Counted from the stretch's first letter, positions 12,969 through 52,600 are shown. The stretch is 64,000 nucleotides of DNA from Gemmatimonadetes bacterium T265 (GCA_019973575.1 BPUI01000001.1:1686342-1750341), one strand, 5' to 3'. Numbers and translations: made by a program. The notes: generated by a model from the sequence alone, not told the origin.

Positions 12969-13982
12969 CTACGCATGGGCACGCCCTCGCCAACGTCGCA
13001 CGGCGTGGCGGCCGAGCGTCCTCAGATTGCTCGGCAGTGCGTACTCGCCAAGGTGAGCTTGCAACTCCAACCGGCTCCGCCGCCCCGGCGGGAGCCGCTG
13101 CAGAAGGCTCGCGCTCCAGTCAGCTATGCTGTCGAAAGTCGCTTCGGGCGAGAAGTAGGCCTCCCAAGTCGCGCGTGCGATCGTACTCATTGTCTCGAAT
13201 CGCTCTTCGAGTGACTCCAGCAGCGTAGGTAGTGCGTCGACGTTCGCTTCCGGAACACGAACGCAAAACGCGTCCCATTCCGGCCCGGTCGGAAGTACGA
13301 TGTCATCGGCAATCACCACCGGTACACAGCCCGCTTCCATCGCCTCGAACAGGCGGATACTGGAAGCAGCGACACCACGTGGGCAGAGTGCGAACTTCGT
13401 CTGACTCAGGCCTTCGCGGAATCGCTCGTACAGTTGCTCGACTGTGTGCAGCTCTCGGTGGTACCACGGGTCTCCTCTACTGGCCGACGAGTCCACCAGG
13501 AGGGCGCGCGGATGCCGCAGCTGAAGCAACTTTGCGCGGATGCGGTGTGTCCAACTCGAACCGACGAAGCTGAAGAGGTAATGTCTTTGCGGCGAACCCA
13601 GCACAGGGTCGAAACCGTGCCGGCGTATATGACTCGATATGTAATGACCGCCGCATACCCAGCCTTGCTTCGCCCAGAAGGGTGTTGCCGCAGGGTACAC
13701 GCCTGGCAGGGTCGGGTAAATTCGGTCGTCGGGACAGTAGCAAAACAGTTTGTTTCTGTACTCGTGATAGATCGCGCTCGTCCGCAGATCCAGAAAATGT
13801 GGACCGAACGCCTCACCCTGTACTGGGGCGAGAATCAGGTCGGCATGTTCCATCCGACTAACTCGGCGGTGCCGGTAGGGCCGATCGCGTGCCGTACTGC
13901 CGACCAGACCGTCGTAGCACGCCCGCTCATAAGTAGACGCGGACGATCTGATTAGCGCCGGGTCAAGGATGTAAACGTCCAT
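12969..13982 (-). CDS. Exostosin-like (GT47-type) glycosyltransferase
   Basis: A 337-residue protein. The C-terminal half has the exostosin signature: SQTKFALCPRG, then SIRLFEAMEAGCVPVVIAD, followed by the acceptor region ending in a conserved glutamate-rich helix. The N-terminal half carries FVGSSWTHRIR. Exostosin-family enzymes are GT-B-fold transferases that in bacteria add sugars to surface glycans. Base composition is lower in G+C than the flanking genes and codon choice is more relaxed, which suggests later acquisition. The ATG at 13982 is the only reasonable start. It is separated from both neighbours by gaps, unlike the rest of the locus. Confidence 0.8.
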   Translation of the reverse strand: MDVYILDPALIRSSASTYERACYDGLVGSTARDRPYRHRRVSRMEHADLILAPVQGEAFGPHFLDLRTSAIYHEYRNKLFCYCPDDRIYPTLPGVYPAATPFWAKQGWVCGGHYISSHIRRHGFDPVLGSPQRHYLFSFVGSSWTHRIRAKLLQLRHPRALLVDSSASRGDPWYHRELHTVEQLYERFREGLSQTKFALCPRGVAASSIRLFEAMEAGCVPVVIADDIVLPTGPEWDAFCVRVPEANVDALPTLLESLEERFETMSTIARATWEAYFSPEATFDSIADWSASLLQRLPPGRRSRLELQAHLGEYALPSNLRTLGRHAVRRWRGRAHA

Positions 13983-14164
13983 CGGTCACACGCTGGGTGA
14001 ACGATCTAGACAAATGGAGCCCCAAGTACGAAGCGATCGCGGTCGTCGACAACGTCTTGGACGTACGTGGCCAAGCAGAACGTCGCGCGTTCGCACGATG
14101 CGCCAGCACGCGTTGCTAGACCGGCTTGATCAGCCGTCCGGCCCCAGGCGCTCCGGCGCCTTCG

Positions 14165-14947
14165 TCAAGTTCCGGCGACAGTCCGAAGGAAGAAACCGTT
14201 AGGCTTCGCAAACGCGACCATTCTGTAGCCGTTGTCTGCGAGTAGAGCGACAACCGATTCGTGCGTGGCCGAGTATAGATCGAAGCCGTGCAACTCGACA
14301 ACGATCACGTAAGGGCGGTATTGAGGCATTCGCAACGACCGCAGGACTTCCAGATCGTGACCTTCGACGTCCACGGTGAGCAGCTCAAAATCATGCGGAG
14401 CGTTATGAGCGTCCAGAATGTCAGCCAACGGCTGCGTAGTTACCCGGTGCCGGGCGCGGATGCTTCGATGCCGACTCCATTCGCTGACGTGCGAATCGTC
14501 GAGCGACGAAACGAGATTGTCGTCGAATTCGGTGAAGGTCCGCAGTTCCACACCATTCGACACAGCTGCATGAACGCTGGTGTCGCGCGGTCGGATGCGG
14601 CGGTGCAAACGTACGAGGTTTGAGTTCGCGTCGACGGTGACACCGCGCCATCCGCGTTGATACAAGGCAAACGTGTTCGAGTACCTCACCGGATGGTTGC
14701 TTCCTACATCGACGTAATAACGTGTCGGTGTGGGGATCGAATTCAGGATCGACCCGATTATGCGGTCTTCCCCGTACTGTCCGTACGACGGGATCGAGTA
14801 CCGGTCAAGTAAATAGCGAGTCACCCAGGCACCGGCTATAAGGGTGGCTGACGCCGGACCGAACTGCCCATACAGCGTACGCATCTGATGACTTCGCGTC
14901 ATAAAGGGCGGAGTTACGTGAAGTGTAGGTCGATGCCGCCGAATCAT
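14165..14947 (-). CDS. FkbM family methyltransferase
   Basis: A 260-residue protein. Motifs: SYGQYGEDRII near residue 54, the SAM-binding strand YYVDVGSNHPVRYSNT, GVTVDANSN, and the later LLTVDVEGHDLEVLRS that defines FkbM-type enzymes. These methylate hydroxyl groups, often of sugars. In the nearby sequence 14221-14280 only 32 of 60 bases are G or C, against 48 of 60 in 9241-9300, so this gene stands out by composition. The N-terminal 20 residues are of uncertain reality; the ATG codons at residues 16 and 22 are alternative starts. It probably acts on the same glycan as its neighbours. Confidence 0.82.
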   Translation of the reverse strand: MIRRHRPTLHVTPPFMTRSHQMRTLYGQFGPASATLIAGAWVTRYLLDRYSIPSYGQYGEDRIIGSILNSIPTPTRYYVDVGSNHPVRYSNTFALYQRGWRGVTVDANSNLVRLHRRIRPRDTSVHAAVSNGVELRTFTEFDDNLVSSLDDSHVSEWSRHRSIRARHRVTTQPLADILDAHNAPHDFELLTVDVEGHDLEVLRSLRMPQYRPYVIVVELHGFDLYSATHESVVALLADNGYRMVAFAKPNGFFLRTVAGT

Positions 14948-18494: not shown

Positions 18495-19642
18495 TGGCCC
18501 GACACCTCGGTGATCTCGCGCGACACGCCGGCGAGCATCGCGTCCATGCTGAAGCGCGCGGCGGCGTCGGCGCGCCCCGCCGCGGCCACCACCGCCCCGG
18601 CGTCGGTGCGCAGCAGGGCGGCGATTGCCGCGGCCAACCGCGCCGCGTCCTCGGGCGGCACGAGCGCGCCCGTCTCGCCGTCGCGCACGATCTCGACGGC
18701 GCCCCCGCCGCGCGTCGCGACGACCGGCCGGCCCGCCAGCATCCCCTCGACGATCACGCGCCCGAACGGCTCGGCGCTCACCGACGTGTGCACGACCACG
18801 TCCGCGACCCGCATGAGCGTCTCGACGTCGGCGCGGAAGCCGAGGAAGTGCACGCGGTCCGCGACGCCGAGCGCGGCGGCGCGTGCGCGCAGTCCGGTCG
18901 CGTAGTCCACCTCGCCGAAGAGCGCGTCGCCCACCACGAGCGCGTGCACGCCCGGCAGGCGCGGGAGCGCGTCGAGCAGGACGTGCTGCCCCTTCCACGG
19001 CGACAGCCGGCCGAACACACCGACCGCCGGCGCGTCGCCTAACCCGAGCGCCGCGCGCGCGGCCGCGGCGTCCGCGTCGCGCACGGCGGCGAACGCGGCC
19101 GCGTCGATGCCGTTGTACACCACGCGCACCTTGCCCGCGCGCCCGCCGCGCCCGACGAACGCGTCGGCGGTGGCGCACGAGTTCGCGACCACGCGCGCCG
19201 CGCGGCCGTTGGCGAGCGCGACGACCGCGCGCACGTTGGTGCGGCTGAAGTGCTCGCCGCTGAGGATGTCGCGCAGGTGCCAAATCACCGGGCGCCGCGC
19301 CGCCGCCCCGGCCGCGGTCGCGACGACGAACGCCTTCTGCGAGTTCGCGTAGATGACGTCGTGCGCGCGCGCGAGCCGCGCCACCGCCCGCGCGACGCCG
19401 AGCAGGCCGGCGAGCGCCGCGGGGCTCGGGACGGCGCTCTCGCGGCGGAGGCCGCGCGTCGCCGCGGACGCGGTCAGGAGCACCGTGCGCACGCCGGCCG
19501 CGCGGAGCCGCTCGCCGAACGGCCCGTCGGCCATGAGCGCGACCGTCGAGCTCCCGGCGTGGTGGCGCGCGATGTCGAGCAGCGACAGCTCCGCGCCGCC
19601 CAACACGCCGACGTGGTCGAGGAAGAGCACGCGGGCCGTCAC
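18491..19642 (-). CDS. Family 4 glycosyltransferase (GT-B fold)
   Basis: A 383-residue protein with ARVLFLDHVGVLGGAELSL at the N-terminus, WHLRDILSGEHFSRTN, NSCATADAF, and the donor half with VGVFGRLSPWKGQHVLL, VHTSVSAEPFGRVIVEGMLAG (EX7E motif) and a closing helix. GTG at 19642 overlaps the stop of the AsnB-GT4 fusion (GTGA). The Leu codon in LGLGD is TTA within a GTTAGGC heptamer. Confidence 0.88.
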   Translation of the reverse strand: MTARVLFLDHVGVLGGAELSLLDIARHHAGSSTVALMADGPFGERLRAAGVRTVLLTASAATRGLRRESAVPSPAALAGLLGVARAVARLARAHDVIYANSQKAFVVATAAGAAARRPVIWHLRDILSGEHFSRTNVRAVVALANGRAARVVANSCATADAFVGRGGRAGKVRVVYNGIDAAAFAAVRDADAAAARAALGLGDAPAVGVFGRLSPWKGQHVLLDALPRLPGVHALVVGDALFGEVDYATGLRARAAALGVADRVHFLGFRADVETLMRVADVVVHTSVSAEPFGRVIVEGMLAGRPVVATRGGGAVEIVRDGETGALVPPEDAARLAAAIAALLRTDAGAVVAAAGRADAAARFSMDAMLAGVSREITEVSGQ

Positions 19643-22600
19643 CGGAGCGCCTCCTCGTACACGGCGCGGATCTGCGCCGCGACCACGGGCCAGCTGTAGC
19701 GCTCGCGCGCGAAACGCTCGCACGCGGCCGCGTCGGGGAGCGGGAGCGTGCCGTCGAGGGCGCGGCCGATGCCGTCGGCGATCGCCGCGGGGCCGGTGGC
19801 GCCGAGGACGAGGTCGCGCGACAGCCCCTCGACCACCTCGGGCAGCGACCCGACGGGCGTGACGAGGGCCGGCGTCCCCGCCGCGAGCGATTCGGCCACG
19901 ATGAGGCCGAACCCTTCGAGCGCGACCGTCGGGACGACGCTGACGGTCGCCGCCCGGTACGCGAGCGGCAGGTCCTCGTCCGCGACGAAGCCTAACATTC
20001 GGACGCTGTCCTGCACGCCGAGCCCGTCGATGCGCCGCTGGAGCTCGCCGGCGATCGCACCCTTGCCGGCGATCAGGACGAGCACGTCGGGGACGCGGCG
20101 CCGGATCTCGGGTACGGCGTCGACCAGATCCTCGAGCCCCATCCGGCGCGCGAGCCGCCGCACGGCGAGCACGATCGGCTGGTCGGCGGGCCACCCGAGC
20201 CGGCGGCGCGCCTCGCCGCGCGACGCGCCGGTCGCGAACCGGTCGACGTCGACCGCGCCCGGGACCACGCGGATGCGGTCGCGCGGCACGCCGTAGCGCT
20301 CGTGCAGGACGCGTTCGAACGCGCGCGAGAGGACGACGCAGCGCGACGCGGTGCGGTATACGGCCGTCTCGAACCGGTGCTTCGTCCTGACGCTCGCCCA
20401 GCCCGCGCCCTCCACCTCCGACTCCAGCGCCCACGGCCCGTGGAAGTGCACGACGAGCGGCCGCCCGCGGAGCAGGCCGAGAGCGGGGTAGGTGTAGAGC
20501 GCGAAGTGCGAGACGACGAGCTTGCGTGTCGGGTCGGCCACGAACTGGCGCACCGCGTCGCGCGTCCGGCGCCAGCGCTCGCGCAGCGGCGCCGTTTGTG
20601 GGGCCATCGCCTCGACTGCGCCACCCGACGTCTGCACGACCGCGTCCGATCCTGCGACCACCCCCCGTACCCGAACGCCGACGTCCGGCAGCGACGCCGT
20701 GAGCCCGTGGTAGTAGCGGTTGAGTCCTCCCGCCTCCTCCCCGAACCACCCCATGCCGATCTGCATCGTCTCGATCGGCGCGGCGCCGGTGTGCCTAACG
20801 AATGGACGCGCCGGGCCGTCGGCGCCCTCCCGGAGCGCGTCGATCGGATCGTTGCGGCCGAGCGTACGGTCGATCGACTGCCTGGCCCACGTCTCGAGTA
20901 CGAGCAGCGTCCATAGCTGCTCGCCCCAGTCGCGGGCGCCGCGCGCGTGCTCGTCGAGCATCCGGCGCACGAACGCCGGCCGGACCCACCCGCGCCGCTG
21001 AAAGGTGCGGCCGTCGAGTACCGCGCGGAGGAGGGGCGCGTGGGCGGTGCTCATCCACTGCCCGACCGGCGCGACGAAGCCCCGCTTGCGACGGTAGATC
21101 ACATCGTGCGGCAGGTAGCGCTCGGCGAGCCGCTTCAGGAGGTACTTGGTCGCGTACCCCTTGAGCCGGACCGCGGTCGGGATCCGCGCGGCGAACTCGA
21201 TCAGCGCCCGGTCGAGGAAGGGCGAGCGCGCCTCGAGCGAGTGCGCCATCGTCGCCACGTCCATCTTGACGAGCAGCTGGTCGGGCAGGTAGGTCGCAAA
21301 GTCGCCGTAGAGCGCGCGGTCGACGTCGTCCTCGCCCGGCGCGCGGTCCCACACGGCGCCGTACAGCGCGTCCGGGTGCTCGGCGCCCTGGAGCGCCGGC
21401 CCGTACGCTTCGTCGCGAAACGACCGAAATCCACGGTCGTACACGAACGCGTCCCGTGCCGACCCGCGCCCCGCCTCTGCGAGCATCCAGGCCCGCCGCA
21501 GACGCCCGTGCGCCTGGCGGGCGAGCGCCCCGGCGATGACCGCGCGCGCGGCGGCCGGCGCGCGGCGGTAGGCGGCGGCGGCGCGCGCGACCACCGGGCG
21601 CGCGTAGCCGCCGAACACCTCGTCGCCGCCGTCGCCGTTCAGCGCGACCGTGACGTGCCGGCGGGCGAGGCGCGCGACGGCGTAGCTCGGCACGATCGAG
21701 ACGTCGGCGAGCGGCTGGCCGTAGTGCCAGACGATCTCGGGGAGCGCGCGCAGCTCGGACGGCCCGATCACGTCCTCGTGCAGGCGGACGCCCCAGCGCT
21801 GGGCCACGGCGCGCGCGTATTGCCGCTCGTCGAACTTCGGGTCGTCGAAACCGATCACGACCGCCTCGACGGCGCTGCTCGACTCCTGCGCCATCATCGA
21901 AACGATCAGACCGGAGTCCACACCTCCCGAGAGGAAGGCGCCGAGCGGGACGTCGCTGACGAGGCGCTTGCGGACGGACGCGCGCAGCAGCGTGTCCGTC
22001 TGTTCCAGAACGTCCTGCTCCGACTCGCGCAGCTTCGGGGCGAACAGCAGGTCCCAGTAGCGGGTGACCGTCGTGGTCCCGCGGTCCGCGTCGAACACGA
22101 GGGCGTGTGCGGGCGGTAGGTGCTCGACGCCTTCGTACATCGTCATCGGCGCCGGCACGGCCTGGTACGTCAGGTACGCGTCGAGCGCGGCGGTGCTCAC
22201 ATCGGGCGTGCACGGGAGGAGCTCGAGTACCGCGTGCAACGTGGAGGCGAAGTAGAGGCTTCCGCCCCGACGACTGAAGTAGAGCGGCTTCTTGCCGACG
22301 CGGTCGCGGGCGGCGTACAGCGTGCGGGCGTGCGCGTCCCAGATCGCGAACGCGAACATCCCGTCGACGCGCGCCAGCAGCCCCTCCCACCCCCACTCGG
22401 CGAAGCCGTGGAGCAGCACCTCGGAGTCGGTGTGCGATTCGAAGTGGTGACGCGCCTCGAGCGCGCGGCGCAGCTCGCGGAAGTTGTAGATCTCGCCGTT
22501 GAAGACGAGCGTTAGGCGACCGTCGCCGGCCTGCATCGGCTGGTGGCCGGCGGCGCTGAGGTCGAGGATCGAAAGGCGGCGGAAGCCGAACGCGACGTCC

Positions 22601-22719
22601 TCCCCGACGCTCAAGCCCGCGTCGTCGGGCCCGCGGTGCCGCATCACCTCGCAGGCGCGCGCGAGGCGCGCCTCGAGGCTGCGCGACGCGGGCCCGACTA
22701 CGCCGACGATGCCACACAT
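19639..22719 (-). CDS. Asparagine synthetase-glycosyltransferase fusion (AsnB + GT4)
   Basis: One uninterrupted 1026-residue frame joins two complete enzymes. Residues 1-640 are a class II glutamine-hydrolysing asparagine synthetase: Cys2 nucleophile (MCGIVG), RHRGPDD, NGEIYN, the PPi-loop SGGVDSG at 264-270 and NGDGGDE at 361-367. Residues 652-1026 are a full GT4 glycosyltransferase: MQIGMGWFGEEAGGLNRYYHGL, VVHFHGPW, RIRVVPGAVDVDRF, VRRLARRMGLEDLV and VALEGFGLIVAESLAAG. The linker (about 640-651) contains a GTTAGGC heptamer. An ATG at 20766 could serve as an internal start for the GT4 half. AsnB paralogues in polysaccharide loci are thought to amidate sugar acids; here the amidation and sugar transfer could be coupled. 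A lost stop codon between former neighbours is the simplest origin. Confidence 0.88.
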   Translation of the reverse strand: MCGIVGVVGPASRSLEARLARACEVMRHRGPDDAGLSVGEDVAFGFRRLSILDLSAAGHQPMQAGDGRLTLVFNGEIYNFRELRRALEARHHFESHTDSEVLLHGFAEWGWEGLLARVDGMFAFAIWDAHARTLYAARDRVGKKPLYFSRRGGSLYFASTLHAVLELLPCTPDVSTAALDAYLTYQAVPAPMTMYEGVEHLPPAHALVFDADRGTTTVTRYWDLLFAPKLRESEQDVLEQTDTLLRASVRKRLVSDVPLGAFLSGGVDSGLIVSMMAQESSSAVEAVVIGFDDPKFDERQYARAVAQRWGVRLHEDVIGPSELRALPEIVWHYGQPLADVSIVPSYAVARLARRHVTVALNGDGGDEVFGGYARPVVARAAAAYRRAPAAARAVIAGALARQAHGRLRRAWMLAEAGRGSARDAFVYDRGFRSFRDEAYGPALQGAEHPDALYGAVWDRAPGEDDVDRALYGDFATYLPDQLLVKMDVATMAHSLEARSPFLDRALIEFAARIPTAVRLKGYATKYLLKRLAERYLPHDVIYRRKRGFVAPVGQWMSTAHAPLLRAVLDGRTFQRRGWVRPAFVRRMLDEHARGARDWGEQLWTLLVLETWARQSIDRTLGRNDPIDALREGADGPARPFVRHTGAAPIETMQIGMGWFGEEAGGLNRYYHGLTASLPDVGVRVRGVVAGSDAVVQTSGGAVEAMAPQTAPLRERWRRTRDAVRQFVADPTRKLVVSHFALYTYPALGLLRGRPLVVHFHGPWALESEVEGAGWASVRTKHRFETAVYRTASRCVVLSRAFERVLHERYGVPRDRIRVVPGAVDVDRFATGASRGEARRRLGWPADQPIVLAVRRLARRMGLEDLVDAVPEIRRRVPDVLVLIAGKGAIAGELQRRIDGLGVQDSVRMLGFVADEDLPLAYRAATVSVVPTVALEGFGLIVAESLAAGTPALVTPVGSLPEVVEGLSRDLVLGATGPAAIADGIGRALDGTLPLPDAAACERFARERYSWPVVAAQIRAVYEEALR

Positions 22720-43967: not shown

Positions 43968-43977
43968 TTACCGCTCC
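43961..43977 (-). terminator. Hairpin whose loop is the stop codon of the MauE-thioredoxin gene
   Basis: GGAGCGG (43961-43967) and CCGCTCC (43971-43977) form perfect seven-base arms around a three-base loop, and the loop is exactly the TAA stop (minus strand). No T tract follows, so it may protect the 3' end or slow translation rather than act as an intrinsic terminator. Confidence 0.35.
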
Positions 43978-44978
43978 GCCGATGTCTCGAGCGCGGCACG
44001 TGCGTCCTCACGTGCATCGTGTTGCACGTTCGGAAAGAACGCCCGGTTGAAGCGCGTCAGGAATTCGGGCGCGATGTTCCCCACCCACTTCGACGTGATG
44101 ACGCCGTGCTCGATCAGCACCGTGGTCGGGACCGCCGATACCAGGCGGTCCAGCCGGGACCGTCGGAGGGAGACGACGGGGAAGCGGATCCCATGCTCCG
44201 CGACAAATCCCTGCCGGGCCTCCGCCGGGGCGCCCACGACGCCGACGACGTCCGGGAGCTCGGGAGACCCGTGAACCACGTTCAGGACGCGCACCCATTG
44301 ATGGCAGAACGGGCAGTCGGTGCCGAGATACGCGACCAACCGTTCCTGGGGCTCCGAGGACACGGCTCCAGCGGCCCACGCCGCACGCCACCGCCGTCCG
44401 GGCTTGAGCGGGTTCAGGTCGATCAGCGGCCGGCCGTTCGCGCTCTCGTGATGCTGTGCGACACCGGTGAGCACCCCTGTGACTACAGCGAGTCCGACCA
44501 CGAGGCACACCTTCCAGAAGGAGCCCGGCTCGCGAGCGCCGGCCGTCCAGGCCAGCAGCAGAAGCGTAGCGTAGAGCGCGTTCAACCCGACGCTCTGGGC
44601 GACCGACGGCGTGAAGTACCCACCGTAGCAGCCGCAGTCCGTGACTCGTCCGCTCCGCACGCTCCAGAAGCTGGCAGCGCCGAGGAGCAGGACGCCGACG
44701 GCGGTGACCGGCAGGGTAGGTCCGGGTGTCAGCCCGACGAGCAGCGCGACGCCGAGGCCCGTCTCGACGGCCGCCACGGCGACGACCGTGGCCGCGAGGA
44801 GGCGGGCCGGGATCCAGCCGAGTCGCGAAAGGTGCGCCTGGAAGTTCAGTGGTGCGAGGGCTTTGACCGCGCCGGCATAGACGAACACCGCCCCGACGAA
44901 CGCCGGGCCGAGGCGGGCCGCCATCGTCAGCTTCAATAGAGCCGGCGCGATGGCCGACGTAGCAGTGATGACGCTCAT
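43968..44978 (-). CDS. MauE/DoxX-type membrane protein fused to a thioredoxin-like domain
   Basis: A 336-residue protein. Residues 1-175 form a MauE-like bundle of four to five membrane helices with the family's cysteine motif DCGCYGG at 114-120; residues 205-320 form a thioredoxin-like domain with active-site CPFC at 222-225 and a cis-Pro region (SAVPTTVLIE). MauE is needed for the disulfide-rich subunit of methylamine dehydrogenase in methylotrophs, so a role in disulfide formation or reduction outside the cytoplasm is plausible. It is divergent from the nucleotidyltransferase-kinase-PqqD genes with only 77 bases between, and the product of that cluster is cysteine-rich, so the two are probably linked. 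Start ATG at 44978. Confidence 0.83.
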   Translation of the reverse strand: MSVITATSAIAPALLKLTMAARLGPAFVGAVFVYAGAVKALAPLNFQAHLSRLGWIPARLLAATVVAVAAVETGLGVALLVGLTPGPTLPVTAVGVLLLGAASFWSVRSGRVTDCGCYGGYFTPSVAQSVGLNALYATLLLLAWTAGAREPGSFWKVCLVVGLAVVTGVLTGVAQHHESANGRPLIDLNPLKPGRRWRAAWAAGAVSSEPQERLVAYLGTDCPFCHQWVRVLNVVHGSPELPDVVGVVGAPAEARQGFVAEHGIRFPVVSLRRSRLDRLVSAVPTTVLIEHGVITSKWVGNIAPEFLTRFNRAFFPNVQHDAREDARAALETSAER

Positions 44979-45055
44979 GGGGTCACAAGGCCGGCGTGCG
45001 GAGTCGAAATGCAGAAGCGATGCGGAACCTACATGCCGACCAACGCGCCCGTAGC

Positions 45056-46234
45056 ATGAGCGTCGCGGTGGCTCGCTCGCCGTCGCCGGAGGAGCGGCTG
45101 GTCCTCGCGACCTGCCGCACGCCGATGACCGGCGCGGCGCGACGGCGCGCGGAGGCGTTGCTCGACGGCCCGCTCGACTGGCAGGCGGTGTTCGCGTGCG
45201 CCGGGCGGTGGCAGGTGGAGCCGGTCGCATTCACCAACCTGCTCGCGATCGCCGGAGAAGCGCTGCCCCAGGCGACGCGCCAGGAAGCGACGACCCGTTG
45301 CTGGACGGCACGCGCGCGATCGTGGAAGCTAACAACCGTTCTGCTCGACCTGCTCCGCCTGTTAGAGGGCGCCGGCATTCCCGTCATCGTCCTGAAAGGG
45401 CCTGCGATCGGCCTCGTGGCCTACGGCGACGTGACAATGCGGACCTTCAACGATCTCGACCTGCTGGTCCAACCCGCCGACGTTCGCCAGGCCCGTTCGC
45501 TGCTCGTCGACGCGGGTTACAGGGCGTATTACGATCCGCGCCAGGAGCTGTCCCGATTGAAGGGTCAACACCCGCTCGAGTTCTCGGACGGCCGCACGCA
45601 CGTCGATCTTCACACGACGCTTTTCTCTCGCTACCTGAAGCTCGACATCGACGCCGCCGCCGCGTGGCGCGACGCGCGCACGGTGCCGTGCCTCGATTCG
45701 ACCATTCGCGTGCTCGCGCGGCACCACCTCTACGTGTACCTGTGCGCTCACGGCGCAAAACATCAGTGGCAGCTGTTCCGCTGGGTGTGCGACGTCGCGC
45801 AACTGGACGCCTCGCTCGAGCCGACAGACGTGGAGCGCATCACGGCCCTCGCCACCACGGTCGGGGCACGTCGCCTGGTCGCGTTGGGGACGCGGCTCGC
45901 CGGCCGGATATCTGGCGGTGCGCCGACGAACGTCGACGCCGACCGCATGGAATCGGAGGCGGCGACGCGTGCGCTCGTCCGGCAGGTCGAAACCGCCTGG
46001 TTCGGCGCGCCGGCCCGGGGTGATGGCGGACTCCTGGCCGTGCTCCATCCGTCGCTGCGTGGCCTTGGCTACTGGATGGCCGCCCGCGAGCGGGTGTGGG
46101 ATCGTCTGATCGCTCCGATGCGGCTCGCCGTCTCGTCGTCGGCCCGTGACGCGCGCGCCGGCTCTCTACGCGGCCTCTGGCGACCGTTGCGGCTGGCAGC
46201 CGGTGTGGTGCAACGCGCCGTGCTGCACAGGTAG
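45056..46234 (+). CDS. Nucleotidyltransferase family protein (NTP_transf_5 type)
   Basis: A 392-residue protein (ATG at 45056; ATG at 45020 or GTG at 44996 would add 12 or 20 residues). The core VIVLKGPAIGLVAYGD (110-125) and RTFNDLDLLVQP (129-140) is the signature of the NTP_transf_5 family, with the D-x-D pair of a nucleotidyltransferase fold. Members regularly accompany PqqD-like proteins and HPr-kinase-like proteins in peptide-modification and glycan clusters. Target unknown; transfer of a nucleotide to the peptide or to a sugar is possible. First gene of a plus-strand operon of at least three. Confidence 0.85.
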   Translation: MSVAVARSPSPEERLVLATCRTPMTGAARRRAEALLDGPLDWQAVFACAGRWQVEPVAFTNLLAIAGEALPQATRQEATTRCWTARARSWKLTTVLLDLLRLLEGAGIPVIVLKGPAIGLVAYGDVTMRTFNDLDLLVQPADVRQARSLLVDAGYRAYYDPRQELSRLKGQHPLEFSDGRTHVDLHTTLFSRYLKLDIDAAAAWRDARTVPCLDSTIRVLARHHLYVYLCAHGAKHQWQLFRWVCDVAQLDASLEPTDVERITALATTVGARRLVALGTRLAGRISGGAPTNVDADRMESEAATRALVRQVETAWFGAPARGDGGLLAVLHPSLRGLGYWMAARERVWDRLIAPMRLAVSSSARDARAGSLRGLWRPLRLAAGVVQRAVLHR

Positions 46235-46246
46235 CAATCACGCCAC

Positions 46247-47128
46247 ATGCCGGACCTCTATTTGGACTTCGACGGACGCCAGCTCCGCGTTCGCACCGAC
46301 GTGCCGGAAGTGCACGACCACATCGCGCGCGTGCACGCGCCCATGCTCGTGCCCGAAGTCACTCGACTGGTGGGAGACCTGCTGGTCGACGCCGTGCCGG
46401 GTGGGCATCGCATGCGCGGCGCGTCCGAACTCACGCTGCAGGGCAGGGCCGACGACCTGTTCATCCACATCAAGGCGGACATCATCTACCAGATGATCAC
46501 GTCGCGGCCCGATCTGCTCTGGCTTCACGCAGGCGCGGTAGAGAAGGACGGGGTCGCGGTGGTCGTCTCCGGACCTCCAGGGCGGGGCAAGAGCACGCTC
46601 GTGACGTTGCTCGCCCGGGCGGGATGGCGCCTCATGTCGGACGACGTCCTCGCGCTGGACATGTGCGCCGACGTCGTCGTCCCGTTCCCGCAGCTCCCGA
46701 ATCCGCGCGTCTTCCCAGGGCGGGAGGTGACCGGCGACGACTTCTACGCACTTCAACGGGAGCTGGCCGTCATGCCGGCCGAGGCGTTCCATCGGGAGCG
46801 GACCCGCTTGGGCGCCGTGATCTTTCCCTGTTTCCAGCCGGGGGCCGAGCCGGATCTGGTCCGCCGCCGACCGGGTGAGGGCGCCCTGGACATGTTGCGC
46901 AATTGCGTGAATGTTGCAGACCACAAGGCGGCGGCGGTGGCCCGGGCGGCCGGCCTCGCCCGCGTCGTCCCGATGTACAGCCTGACGTACGGCGTGGCCG
47001 CCTCCGCTGTTGACCAGATTCAGCGCCTTCTCGACTCCGTGCTCGTCCACGCCGCATCAATGTGCGACGGGGTCGGCCCCGCAGTTGCATCACTCCCACC
47101 GAAACCCACCCCATCGGAGTCGACATGA
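46247..47128 (+). CDS. HPr-kinase-related P-loop protein (HprK-rel-A type)
   Basis: A 293-residue protein. DLLWLHAGAVEKDGVAVVVSG leads into Walker A GPPGRGKST at 109-117, followed by GWRLMSDDVLALD at 127-137, the arrangement of the HprK-related family (kinase fold of HPr serine kinase, without the HPr partner). It lies 12 bases after the nucleotidyltransferase gene and overlaps the PqqD-domain gene by four bases (ATGA). Lasso-peptide clusters of Firmicutes use a related kinase to phosphorylate the peptide C-terminus, so a peptide is a plausible substrate here, as an inference. No canonical substrate-binding loop is recognisable. Confidence 0.85.
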   Translation: MPDLYLDFDGRQLRVRTDVPEVHDHIARVHAPMLVPEVTRLVGDLLVDAVPGGHRMRGASELTLQGRADDLFIHIKADIIYQMITSRPDLLWLHAGAVEKDGVAVVVSGPPGRGKSTLVTLLARAGWRLMSDDVLALDMCADVVVPFPQLPNPRVFPGREVTGDDFYALQRELAVMPAEAFHRERTRLGAVIFPCFQPGAEPDLVRRRPGEGALDMLRNCVNVADHKAAAVARAAGLARVVPMYSLTYGVAASAVDQIQRLLDSVLVHAASMCDGVGPAVASLPPKPTPSEST

Positions 47129-47676
47129 TGTTCCTGCCCCGCCCCCGTAATGGCCTGCGTCGCCATCGTATCGAGGATCAGGTCCTGGTCTACGATGCGC
47201 GTACCGACCGGACGCACCTCCTCGACCACGCTACGGGAACCGTCCTCGACTTGCTCGAGGAGGGCGGGCGACCGCCCGAGGCGCTCGTTGTCGAACTCGG
47301 GCGTCGGATTGACCGGCCTGCCGATGACGCTCTGGTGACGCTGGCGCTCGATGAGCTGCGCAAAGCGGAGCTGCTCGACGAGGACCGGTCCCCGGCTCCG
47401 CTGAACGAGGTCAGCCGCCGTCAGCTGCTGCGGCGCGCCGGCCTGGTCGGGGCGACGGCGCTCCTCGTTCCGACGATCGTGTCGCTGACGGCGAACCCAT
47501 TGTATGCGGCGAGTCCGTCGCCGTGTTCACAGTCTTCGGGTAGGCTGGCTGGATGTAAGTGCAGTATGCTCACCGGAAGCAGCGTTTGCGCGAGCGGCTG
47601 CTGTAAGTCGAACGGCAGCTCTGGCAATGGCGAGAACACCTGCGTGGCTAAAGGTTCCGGGATCCAGTGCTACTGA
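47125..47676 (+). CDS. PqqD-domain protein fused to twin-arginine-like segment and eight-cysteine C-terminal domain
   Basis: A 183-residue protein; ATG at 47125 overlaps the kinase stop. Residues 8-85 form a PqqD/RRE-like winged-helix domain (YDARTDRTHLLDHATGTVLDLLEEGG, ALDELRKAELLDE). At 97-105 comes SRRQLLRRA, resembling a Tat motif, followed by a hydrophobic stretch (106-123) and a possible signal-peptidase site near PLYAAS (125-130). The last 54 residues contain cysteines at 134, 144, 146, 155, 159, 160, 173 and 182 in a Gly/Ser-rich sequence, the spacing of a small disulfide-bonded or otherwise cross-linked peptide. PqqD proteins normally bind a separate precursor's leader; here the binding domain and a precursor-like tail seem to be one chain. 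Function not established. Confidence 0.8.
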   Translation: MMFLPRPRNGLRRHRIEDQVLVYDARTDRTHLLDHATGTVLDLLEEGGRPPEALVVELGRRIDRPADDALVTLALDELRKAELLDEDRSPAPLNEVSRRQLLRRAGLVGATALLVPTIVSLTANPLYAASPSPCSQSSGRLAGCKCSMLTGSSVCASGCCKSNGSSGNGENTCVAKGSGIQCY

Positions 47677-47762
47677 GGCTGAGTCGAGAGGTATAACTCG
47701 GTACCCGGGAGCGCCGGTGGTCAAGCACTTCGAACGACCTGTCAATTTGCCCTCATCTAGCT

Positions 47763-48096
47763 GACCGGGTTACAGCTTGATGCCGGGCAGCGCTCCGCGC
47801 TGCTCATCCTCGACGAGGCGACGAGTGCGCTCGACTCGGAGAACGAGCGGCGCATCCAGGCGGCGATCGCCGAACTGCACGGGCGCCCCACGATCCTCGT
47901 CATCACGCACCGCCTCGCGGCCGTGCGCGACGCGGACCTGATCCACGTGGTCGAAGGCGGGCGCGTGGTGGAGTCGGGCACGTGGGACGCGTTGCTGGCC
48001 GACGCGGGGCGGTTCCGCGCGCTCTGCGCCGCGCAGGCGATCGTCGCCGACGCTGCAGCCGAGCACGGAGCGGTCGTCGGCGAGCCGGTCGCGTAA
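47763..48096 (+). pseudogene. C-terminal remnant of an ABC exporter ATPase
   Basis: An open stretch after a TAG at 47758-47760 translates as the last ~110 residues of an exporter ATPase: AGQRSALLILDEATSALD (Walker B with D-loop), then TILVITHRLAAVRDADLIHV (switch His) and a normal C-terminus. Walker A, the membrane domain and most of the signature motif are absent: the sequence jumps from LQLDAGQ straight to the strand before Walker B, as if about 15 residues and everything upstream were deleted. No usable start codon is near. It sits directly behind the PqqD-domain gene, where an exporter of the peptide would be expected. Its TAA overlaps the next gene's ATG. Confidence 0.8.
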
Positions 48097-51494: not shown

Positions 51495-52181
51495 TCAGCC
51501 CGCGCGTCCGCCCTGCCGCTCGTCGCTCAGAATGGCCGCGGAGACGATGGGGTGCGCCCACACCGGAATCTCCACGGCGGGCGCGACCGCGATGATGCGG
51601 CCGGTCGCGATGTGGAGCAGCAGTCGGAGCGCCGGCGCCACGCCCGCATCGGGGTCTCCCTCGACGCTGTTGTCATAGACCAAAAGGGACGTGAGCCGGG
51701 GCAGGAGCGCGACCAGATGCTCGCGACTCCGTCGGTAGCGTTCGCGAATCTTCGCCTCGGGGATGTCGTGACCACCCCGGGCGACCCGCGCCCGCACGCG
51801 GGCAATATGGCGCTCCGGCGAGTCCAGGCCGACGTAGCGCATCACGACCTCGATCCCGGTATCGAGCGCGCGTCCGAGGAGCATCGCGATGGTGGCGCCG
51901 CCGAGCGTCGTCTCGAATGCGAAGTCCTCGCGGCGCGCGATGGCCCGCTCGAGCCCTGCACGTCCCGCGTCCCAGGCGCGCGCGTTGGCTGCCGCGTGGG
52001 GCAGCCCCGGGTCCTCGGCCCGGAGCGCGCGCGCCTCCTCGTCGGGGTTGAAATAGGCGCCGCCGCGCGCCCGGATCGTCTCGCCGACGATACTGCTCTT
52101 GCCCGCGCCGTTGACGCCGGCGATGACGGTGATCCGTGCGAAGCTGTGCGGAGGGCCGGGGCCTTGCGCCCCCTCCGTCAC
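51495..52181 (-). CDS. Zeta-toxin-like P-loop kinase
   Basis: A 228-residue protein. ITVIAGVNGAGKSS puts Walker A at 22-30; AYFNPDEEAR and FAFETTLGG (the Phe-Glu-Thr-Thr loop) match zeta-type enzymes, and YVGLDSPERHIARVRARV with RYRRSREHL supplies the arginine-rich lid. Zeta toxins phosphorylate UDP-N-acetylglucosamine and block wall synthesis. GTG start at 52181 overlaps the stop of the antitoxin gene (GTGA), so translation is coupled. It stands between two polysaccharide gene groups, where it may stabilise the region. Confidence 0.8.
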   Translation of the reverse strand: MTEGAQGPGPPHSFARITVIAGVNGAGKSSIVGETIRARGGAYFNPDEEARALRAEDPGLPHAAANARAWDAGRAGLERAIARREDFAFETTLGGATIAMLLGRALDTGIEVVMRYVGLDSPERHIARVRARVARGGHDIPEAKIRERYRRSREHLVALLPRLTSLLVYDNSVEGDPDAGVAPALRLLLHIATGRIIAVAPAVEIPVWAHPIVSAAILSDERQGGRAG

Positions 52182-52546
52182 GCGGCCACGGCTGCGCAGC
52201 GGCGGGCGGCGTCCACCGCCGCCCGGCCCATCTCCTCGGGGGAGGCGTTCACGGCCTCGGCGGTCGCTGCGCGGACGGCCGTGTCCTGCATGCGCGCGTA
52301 CAGAGCTTCGAATCGCGCGCCGAGTGCCTCGAGCGTGCCGGCCTCCTGCGCGACGAGCTGGCGGTAGCGGTCGACCGGGACTACCACGGCGCGCACGGCG
52401 TTGTGGCGCGTGACGGCGACCACCTGGCCACCCGTGACGGCGTCGAGAACCTGCCCGAAGGCGTTCTGCACCTCCGTCGCTGGAATCGTCCGCGCGATTC
52501 CGGGGAGCGCGGGTGGTGCGGCGGCGTCATGTGCGGAGTCGGACAT
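52178..52546 (-). CDS. Phd/YefM-type antitoxin
   Basis: A 122-residue protein. IPATEVQNAFGQVLDAVTGGQVVAVTRHN at about 20-48 and AVVVPVDRYRQL form the Phd/YefM DNA-binding fold; the Ala/Glu-rich C-terminus (about 65-122) would bind the toxin. ATG at 52546 is preceded by a strong ribosome-binding site GGAGG (52551-52555, minus strand). The palindrome at 52584-52600 lies just upstream and suits autorepression. Pairing of a Phd-type antitoxin with a zeta-type toxin is uncommon. Confidence 0.82.
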   Translation of the reverse strand: MSDSAHDAAAPPALPGIARTIPATEVQNAFGQVLDAVTGGQVVAVTRHNAVRAVVVPVDRYRQLVAQEAGTLEALGARFEALYARMQDTAVRAATAEAVNASPEEMGRAAVDAARRCAAVAA

Positions 52547-52583
52547 GGGACCTCCGGAAGCGGACGATCGGCAACGTGTCGAT

Positions 52584-52600
52584 TTCGCCAATATGGCGAA
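52584..52600. promoter_or_regulatory. Palindromic operator of the toxin-antitoxin genes
   Basis: TTCGCCA-ATA-TGGCGAA is a perfect seven-base-arm palindrome 38 bases upstream of the antitoxin start. Phd/YefM antitoxins bind short palindromes over their own promoter, so this is the expected autoregulation site. It is the most A+T-rich spot in the 167-base gap. Confidence 0.65.

Follow-up and report, generated by a model that had tools for sequence, protein, structure and literature searches.

The 64,000-nucleotide stretch of Gemmatimonadetes bacterium T265 analysed here (GCA_019973575.1, BPUI01000001.1:1686342-1750341; hereafter the window, with positions counted from its first letter) contains a cassette of four genes, which fully occupy positions 43968-47676. 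They encode a MauE-thioredoxin protein (MauE-Trx), an NTP_transf_5 nucleotidyltransferase-like protein, an HprK-related kinase and a fusion protein. We read them as a maturation cassette for a ribosomal peptide whose precursor carries its own RiPP (ribosomally synthesized and post-translationally modified peptide) recognition element, or RRE, and which would be matured by the steps proposed below; we give this reading a probability of about 0.5. The gene content and linkage of the cassette, the domain structure of the fusion, the divergence between its leader and core and the even cysteine counts are all directly established. Because the same four genes are clustered in five Gemmatimonadaceae genomes, that of the window counted, they form more than a chance neighbourhood, as a first-pass annotation of the window had proposed.

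The fusion protein and its relatives

The fusion protein consists of an RRE, a signal and a core, in this order. In the predicted model, residues 1-85 are of high confidence and fold into three strands (residues 11-16, 19-24 and 29-34) and three helices (35-46, 51-62 and 68-80), the succession by which an RRE is defined (PMC12710340). The top solved neighbours returned by Foldseek are TbiB1, the RRE of a lasso peptide system (E 1.4e-4), and other RREs. The PqqD-like domain, which scores 30.2 bits against TIGR04353 (E 6.3e-7; curated cut-off 35), is by its modelled structure an RRE. The first-pass annotation had described a PqqD-peptide fusion; the domain and the cysteine-containing tail are indeed present, and a signal lying between them had been overlooked. 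This segment, SRRQLLRRAGLVGATALLVPTIVSLTANPLYAA, resembles a twin-arginine signal, with an SRR-type motif, a hydrophobic stretch and a terminal AxA, and curated twin-arginine translocation (Tat) models remain just below cut-off on the window protein (16.7 bits would be required for TIGR01409).

A phylum-wide search of the Gemmatimonadota, after which the neighbourhoods were fetched, yielded 27 full fusions, all of the same architecture. The arginine pair, Pro116 in the hydrophobic stretch and a valine or isoleucine at position 118 are conserved in 27/27, and a Ser or Thr, read by eye, closely follows the AxA in every copy. The P-x-[VI] of the signal recalls the sequence bound by lasso-type RREs, [Y/W]xxPx[L/V/I/F/A] (PMC13381572), and by this analogy the signal may double as a recognition sequence. 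TatC is present in eight of the nine genomes tested (the host and seven of eight others), and these sequences suggest that Tat would account for export better than an ABC exporter.

The fusions behave like precursors, since their heads are conserved, their tails diverge, their cysteines come in even numbers, and tandem copies and an orphan copy exist. Between pairs of Cys-tailed fusions, leader identity is 35-90%, as against 13-42% for the tails outside the cysteines. Sixteen copies have Cys-rich tails, each with 6, 8 or 10 cysteines; the probability that all 16 counts would be even by chance is 1.5e-5 if the copies are independent and about 2e-3 if they are reduced to the roughly nine distinct spacings. 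Tandem or multiple fusions occur in four genomes (G188, G242, G305 and G276). The last of these holds a full cassette at one site (L035) and, at another, an orphan RRE-Tat-Cys fusion with 10 cysteines (L036:9895-10485), within 10 kb of which there is no HprK, NTP_transf_5 or MauE gene. The remaining tails are Gln/Asn-rich, Ser/Thr/Pro-rich, Ig-like or very short; in one fusion (L104:1-754), an Ig-like tail region is followed by a poly-Ser run up to the contig end. The knottin spacing C-C-CC-C-C fits the tails of G276 and G369 only, which also give weak matches to Tachystatin/UPF0506 and to knottin PDB entries, and not the tail of the window.

An HprK gene lies near most fusions and an NTP_transf_5 gene near many, and in two genomes (G241, locus L043, and G226, locus L039) the three genes are directly consecutive. 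In three loci of family f5 (L042, L043 and L046), the fusion sits between rpoC and rpsL-rpsG-fusA, judging by the protein sequences. HprK and NTP_transf_5 lie beside it in L043, and in L046 the fusion itself is interrupted; in a fourth locus of this family (L044), it lies on the rpsG/rpsL side. Such a position is unusual for peptide maturation genes. Since the fusion occupies this position in L042 and L043, in the latter together with both enzymes, the minimal unit is HprK, fusion and NTP_transf_5, separate from polysaccharide loci.

The fusion found no relatives in the viral collection. A profile search of genome contigs with a 4-row alignment gave two loci, both from Gemmatimonadota, and the plasmid collection a single match, plasmid 1 (1.1 Mb) of Gemmatirosa kalamazoonensis KBS708 (NZ_CP007129.1; G080:C3:1039300-1043900, loci L045 and L131), where HprK, fusion and MauE-Trx stand in a row and NTP_transf_5 on the other strand. 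This strain is the only named cultured carrier found.

The kinase and the nucleotidyltransferase

The HprK-related kinase reaches 90.4 bits against TIGR04352, below the cut-off of 200, and carries the motifs HAGAV, GRGKST (Walker A) and SDD. Among its relatives, the histidine and the Walker lysine are each kept in 21 of 22 sequences and the aspartate in all 22; residues of this kind are required by the kinases of lasso peptides (PMC9266682). In the NTP_transf_5 protein of the window, the KG, DxD and His positions are intact, and K, G, R, D and D are invariant in 18/18 sequences.

The MauE-thioredoxin protein

The MauE domain scores well above its cut-off (PF07291, 53 bits against 27; E 5.6e-14). 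The membrane part contains a DCGCYG motif, of which CGCYG is kept in 7/7 sequences, and the C-terminal part is thioredoxin-like, with a CPFC motif and weak MauD/ResA matches. Of the 177 genomes of the window's family, six contain MauE-Trx and at least 12 the fusion; all six MauE-Trx genomes carry the fusion, an overlap whose probability (six genomes within 12 of 177) is 2e-8, uncorrected for kinship. The tie between MauE-Trx and the PqqD-Cys fusion, which the first-pass annotation had suggested, thus holds within this family, and the absence of joint occurrence in related genomes that it had named as a refutation was not seen. Moreover, MauE-Trx is present in the six genomes with Cys-tailed fusions versus none of the six with other fusions (Fisher 0.002). 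It is linked to the cassette in all six, in three gene orders: divergent before NTP_transf_5 (the window and G246), between fusion and NTP_transf_5 (G276 and G369), and downstream of the fusion after a 16-base gap (G080). In the sixth (G127), a contig end truncates the locus, an internal stop interrupts the fusion, and another MauE-Trx gene stands by itself at a different site. The trees differ on whether the MauE association has a single origin: in that of NTP_transf_5 the five MauE loci all group together (79%), and those of the fusion and HprK set Gemmatirosa apart.

Layout of the cassette and the truncated ABC gene

The features are collected in the table. The first-pass annotation had described a plus-strand operon with a 12-base gap (NTP_transf_5 ends at 46234 and HprK starts at 46247), an ATGA overlap and a MauE gene diverging 77 bases away; all are found at the positions it gave, and its gene names and coordinates are borne out by matches to PF07291, PF14907, TIGR04352 and TIGR04353. 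No promoter was recognised by a sigma-70 consensus scan of the divergent region (44979-45055). A neighbouring gene encodes a beta-helix protein.

Features of the cassette and its right-hand junction (window positions)
Feature	Position	Strand	Evidence or remark
MauE-thioredoxin fusion, ~336 aa	43968-44978	minus	ATG at 44978; divergently transcribed
Divergent intergenic region, 77 bases	44979-45055	none	presumed promoters; sequence
NTP_transf_5 nucleotidyltransferase-like protein	45056-46234	plus	PF14907, E 1.9e-53
HprK-related kinase	46247-47128	plus	TIGR04352, E 1e-25
Fusion protein, 183 aa, candidate precursor with built-in RRE	47125-47676	plus	ATGA overlap with HprK gene
RRE/PqqD-like domain, residues 1-85	47125-47379	plus	TIGR04353 over residues 17-84; Foldseek RRE matches
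Twin-arginine-type signal, residues 97-129	47413-47511	plus	RR conservation; TIGR01409, 14.7 bits
Mature 54-aa tail rich in Ser, with 8 Cys: candidate core peptide	47512-47673	plus	sequence; even Cys count
Junction of cassette and truncated ABC gene, low-GC spacer (GC 0.58)	47677-47790	none	composition
Truncated ABC exporter ATPase C-terminus	47791-48096	plus	in an open stretch at 47761-48096; best match PRK13657, 3.2e-27; GC3 0.93

The tail of an ABC exporter, which the first-pass annotation had counted as a remnant belonging to the system, is a real ABC ATPase C-terminus, MsbA-like and starting at about the Walker B/D-loop, with no membrane domain, Walker A or signature. Its place in the cassette was rejected on two grounds. 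The G+C content at third codon positions (GC3) is 0.77-0.85 in the cassette versus 0.93-0.96 in the ABC tail and the next gene, with the low-GC spacer between them. In addition, the intact exporter that might have been expected in relatives was not seen: with the ABC tail alone as query, no ABC match was found near any of their cassettes. The tail is probably a broken gene and not part of the system; on the best reading, an older gene was disrupted on the arrival of the cassette or of the genes to its left.

Comparison with known systems

The closest parallels are with systems built around an HprK-like kinase. The clusters for linear polyphosphorylated peptides (LPP) of Bacillota (Nat Commun 2026) have as core genes an HprK-like kinase, an NTP transferase and a discrete RRE, also hold a SipW-like SpI peptidase and an MsbA-type exporter, and have been found in capsule loci as well; the kinase adds up to four phosphates to core Ser3, the RRE is needed for leader cleavage, and deletion of lppN, the NTP transferase gene, has no visible effect (PMC13381572). 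The present cassette likewise combines an HprK-like kinase, an NTP transferase and an RRE, its candidate precursor has a conserved N-terminus and a highly variable C-terminus, and the polysaccharide-locus setting is shared. It differs in that the RRE is the N-terminal part of the fusion, with no separate precursor in the cassette, in that no SipW-like SpI peptidase is encoded within the cassette span (43968-47676), and in that the only trace of an MsbA exporter is the truncated tail, with no ABC match near the cassettes of relatives; conversely, a Tat-type signal, Cys-rich cores and MauE-Trx are added. Because the RRE is not discrete and the cassette has neither SpI nor exporter, it is not LPP by definition.

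The phosphorylated lasso peptides of the paeninodin type (PadeK/ThcoK; PMC9266682) share the HprK-like kinase with its conserved His, Lys and Asp and an RRE (B1-like), and have an NTP transferase as accessory (PMC13381572). The cassette is nevertheless not a lasso cluster: it contains no lasso cyclase or B2 peptidase, and the window tail does not end in Ser. The asparagine synthase found elsewhere in the window (19642-22719) bears GATase and GT4 domains. The HPr-rel-A families of NCBIfam (TIGR04352/TIGR04353) are the best named families for the kinase and PqqD domains, although both scores are below cut-off and, in this cassette, the PqqD domain is followed in the same protein by a Tat signal and a core. 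By analogy, the cassette may work like the kinase branch of the LPP, lasso and HPr-rel-A systems.

MauE has precedents of its own. In methylamine dehydrogenase, the small MauA protein is rich in cysteines, bears a twin-arginine leader and depends for its maturation on MauE together with a thioredoxin-like partner, MauD. The cassette offers a similar set, a twin-arginine-led Cys-rich small protein with MauE and a thioredoxin-like partner, except that the tryptophan pair of the tryptophan tryptophylquinone (TTQ) cofactor is missing and that the candidate product is a small peptide and not an enzyme subunit. In Streptomyces, decRiPPter placed MauE homologues next to predicted precursors with at least 8 Cys, a likeness to the present pair; the gene sets are otherwise different, and the parts of that report consulted do not mention HprK or NTP_transf_5 (PMC7794033). 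The literature searched contained no HPr-rel-A names, no HprK-related protein with PqqD and no RRE-precursor fusion. The parts are known, and the RRE-precursor arrangement was not found in that literature.

Proposed pathway and alternatives

We propose that the fusion is made in the cytosol, where its N-terminal RRE would dock the HprK-related kinase, the NTP_transf_5 enzyme or both. These would phosphorylate and further modify a Ser/Thr of the attached core, most likely close to the AxA-S junction. The internal twin-arginine signal would then direct export via Tat, followed by cleavage after AxA, and in this lineage the membrane MauE-Trx would, outside the cytoplasm, oxidise the cysteines of the Cys-rich core to give a mini-protein stabilised by disulfides. 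The best reading is that the cassette represents HprK/RRE peptide maturation in a variant form, to which this branch has added an accessory for oxidative folding. The wider generalization is somewhat more tentative, at a little short of even odds: a RiPP-like class in which a single chain unites recognition element and substrate (RRE, then Tat signal, then hypervariable core), is acted on by an HprK-type kinase and NTP_transf_5 and leaves through Tat. A Gemmatimonadaceae branch would have added the MauE-Trx oxidant to this class, giving phosphorylated disulfide-rich mini-proteins.

Several points weigh against this interpretation. Enzyme-substrate relations, phosphorylation, Tat export, cleavage, disulfides and the product are things we infer and did not observe, and kinase recruitment, phosphorylation, export, cleavage and oxidation are proposed by analogy with LPP. 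The TIGR04353, TIGR04352 and Tat models all score under their curated cut-offs, and the Ser/Thr after AxA may reflect signal peptidase preference alone. The window tail has no resolved structure in the predicted model; that of G369 is of modest confidence, with strands at cystine-knot-like places and no Foldseek match. Four of the six MauE-Trx genomes belong to one genus, so that the counts are not independent and the association with Cys tails represents perhaps two events. Finally, MauE-Trx, placed in the system by the first-pass annotation and linked to it in the window's family, is not universal: since Cys-rich fusions of families f5 and f2 have no linked MauE-Trx, it is a branch-specific accessory for the Cys tail, and accessory at most.

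Other explanations have to be considered. PqqD domains normally bind in trans to a peptide, TIGR04353 bears the name of a peptide chaperone and some tails are very short or of low complexity, so that the fusion might be a membrane-anchored RRE or chaperone for another, unlinked precursor, its variable tail being only a periplasmic anchor or sensor. We consider this unlikely, for no other recurring small open reading frame was seen in the cassettes, the consecutive genes of L043 and L039 included, while the tails show core-like variation, occur in tandem multiples and retain even numbers of cysteines; the orphan fusion of L036, devoid of enzymes, would make little sense for a chaperone. A shade less likely again is that the cassette serves the adjoining exopolysaccharide locus, its enzymes acting on the polysaccharide or on regulators and the Cys-rich exported protein being an attached surface protein. 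The Wza, BY-kinase and sugar transferase genes that flank it in the window are in keeping with this, as is the position of three other loci (L035, L037 and L038) among sugar-nucleotide and acyltransferase-like genes (read by eye), but the fusions of L042 and L043, the latter with both enzymes, lie between rpoC and rpsL, away from such loci.

A third alternative is a once complete LPP- or paeninodin-like cluster, with discrete precursor and MsbA-type exporter, now in decay: the RRE would be joined to a remnant, and the ABC tail would be what is left of the exporter. MsbA-type exporters belong to LPP clusters (PMC13381572), and this tail is MsbA-like. The idea is improbable, given that the same architecture is intact in five genomes with no ABC gene nearby, that a composition step separates tail and cassette, and that kinase and transferase retain their catalytic motifs. 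Least credible of all is that MauE-Trx supports a quinone-cofactor protein: MauE and MauD are known from the methylamine dehydrogenase system (PMC7794033), but the cassettes showed no further mau genes. A TTQ-type cofactor on the window tail was itself rejected, because this tail contains no Trp.

Other features of the window

Elsewhere in the window, a Phd/YefM-type antitoxin (PF02604) beside a Zeta-toxin-like AAA_33 kinase (51495-52591) forms a probable toxin-antitoxin pair. A single 1026-aa open reading frame (19639-22719) encodes both an asparagine synthase (GATase_7 and Asn_synthase) and a GT4 glycosyltransferase. At 12969-14947, an exostosin-type GT47 gene and an FkbM methyltransferase gene have a lower GC3 (0.64-0.67) and look recently acquired.

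Significance

If the proposed reading is true, a substrate can contain its own RRE, and export can proceed by Tat instead of a dedicated ABC pump. MauE-type membrane oxidants would gain a defined small substrate, and the finding would bear on the role of NTP_transf_5 proteins in such clusters. The idea is testable, as a version is present on plasmid 1 of a cultured strain, Gemmatirosa kalamazoonensis KBS708. If the reading holds, the HprK/NTP_transf_5 peptide family would be wider than Bacillota and lasso peptides.

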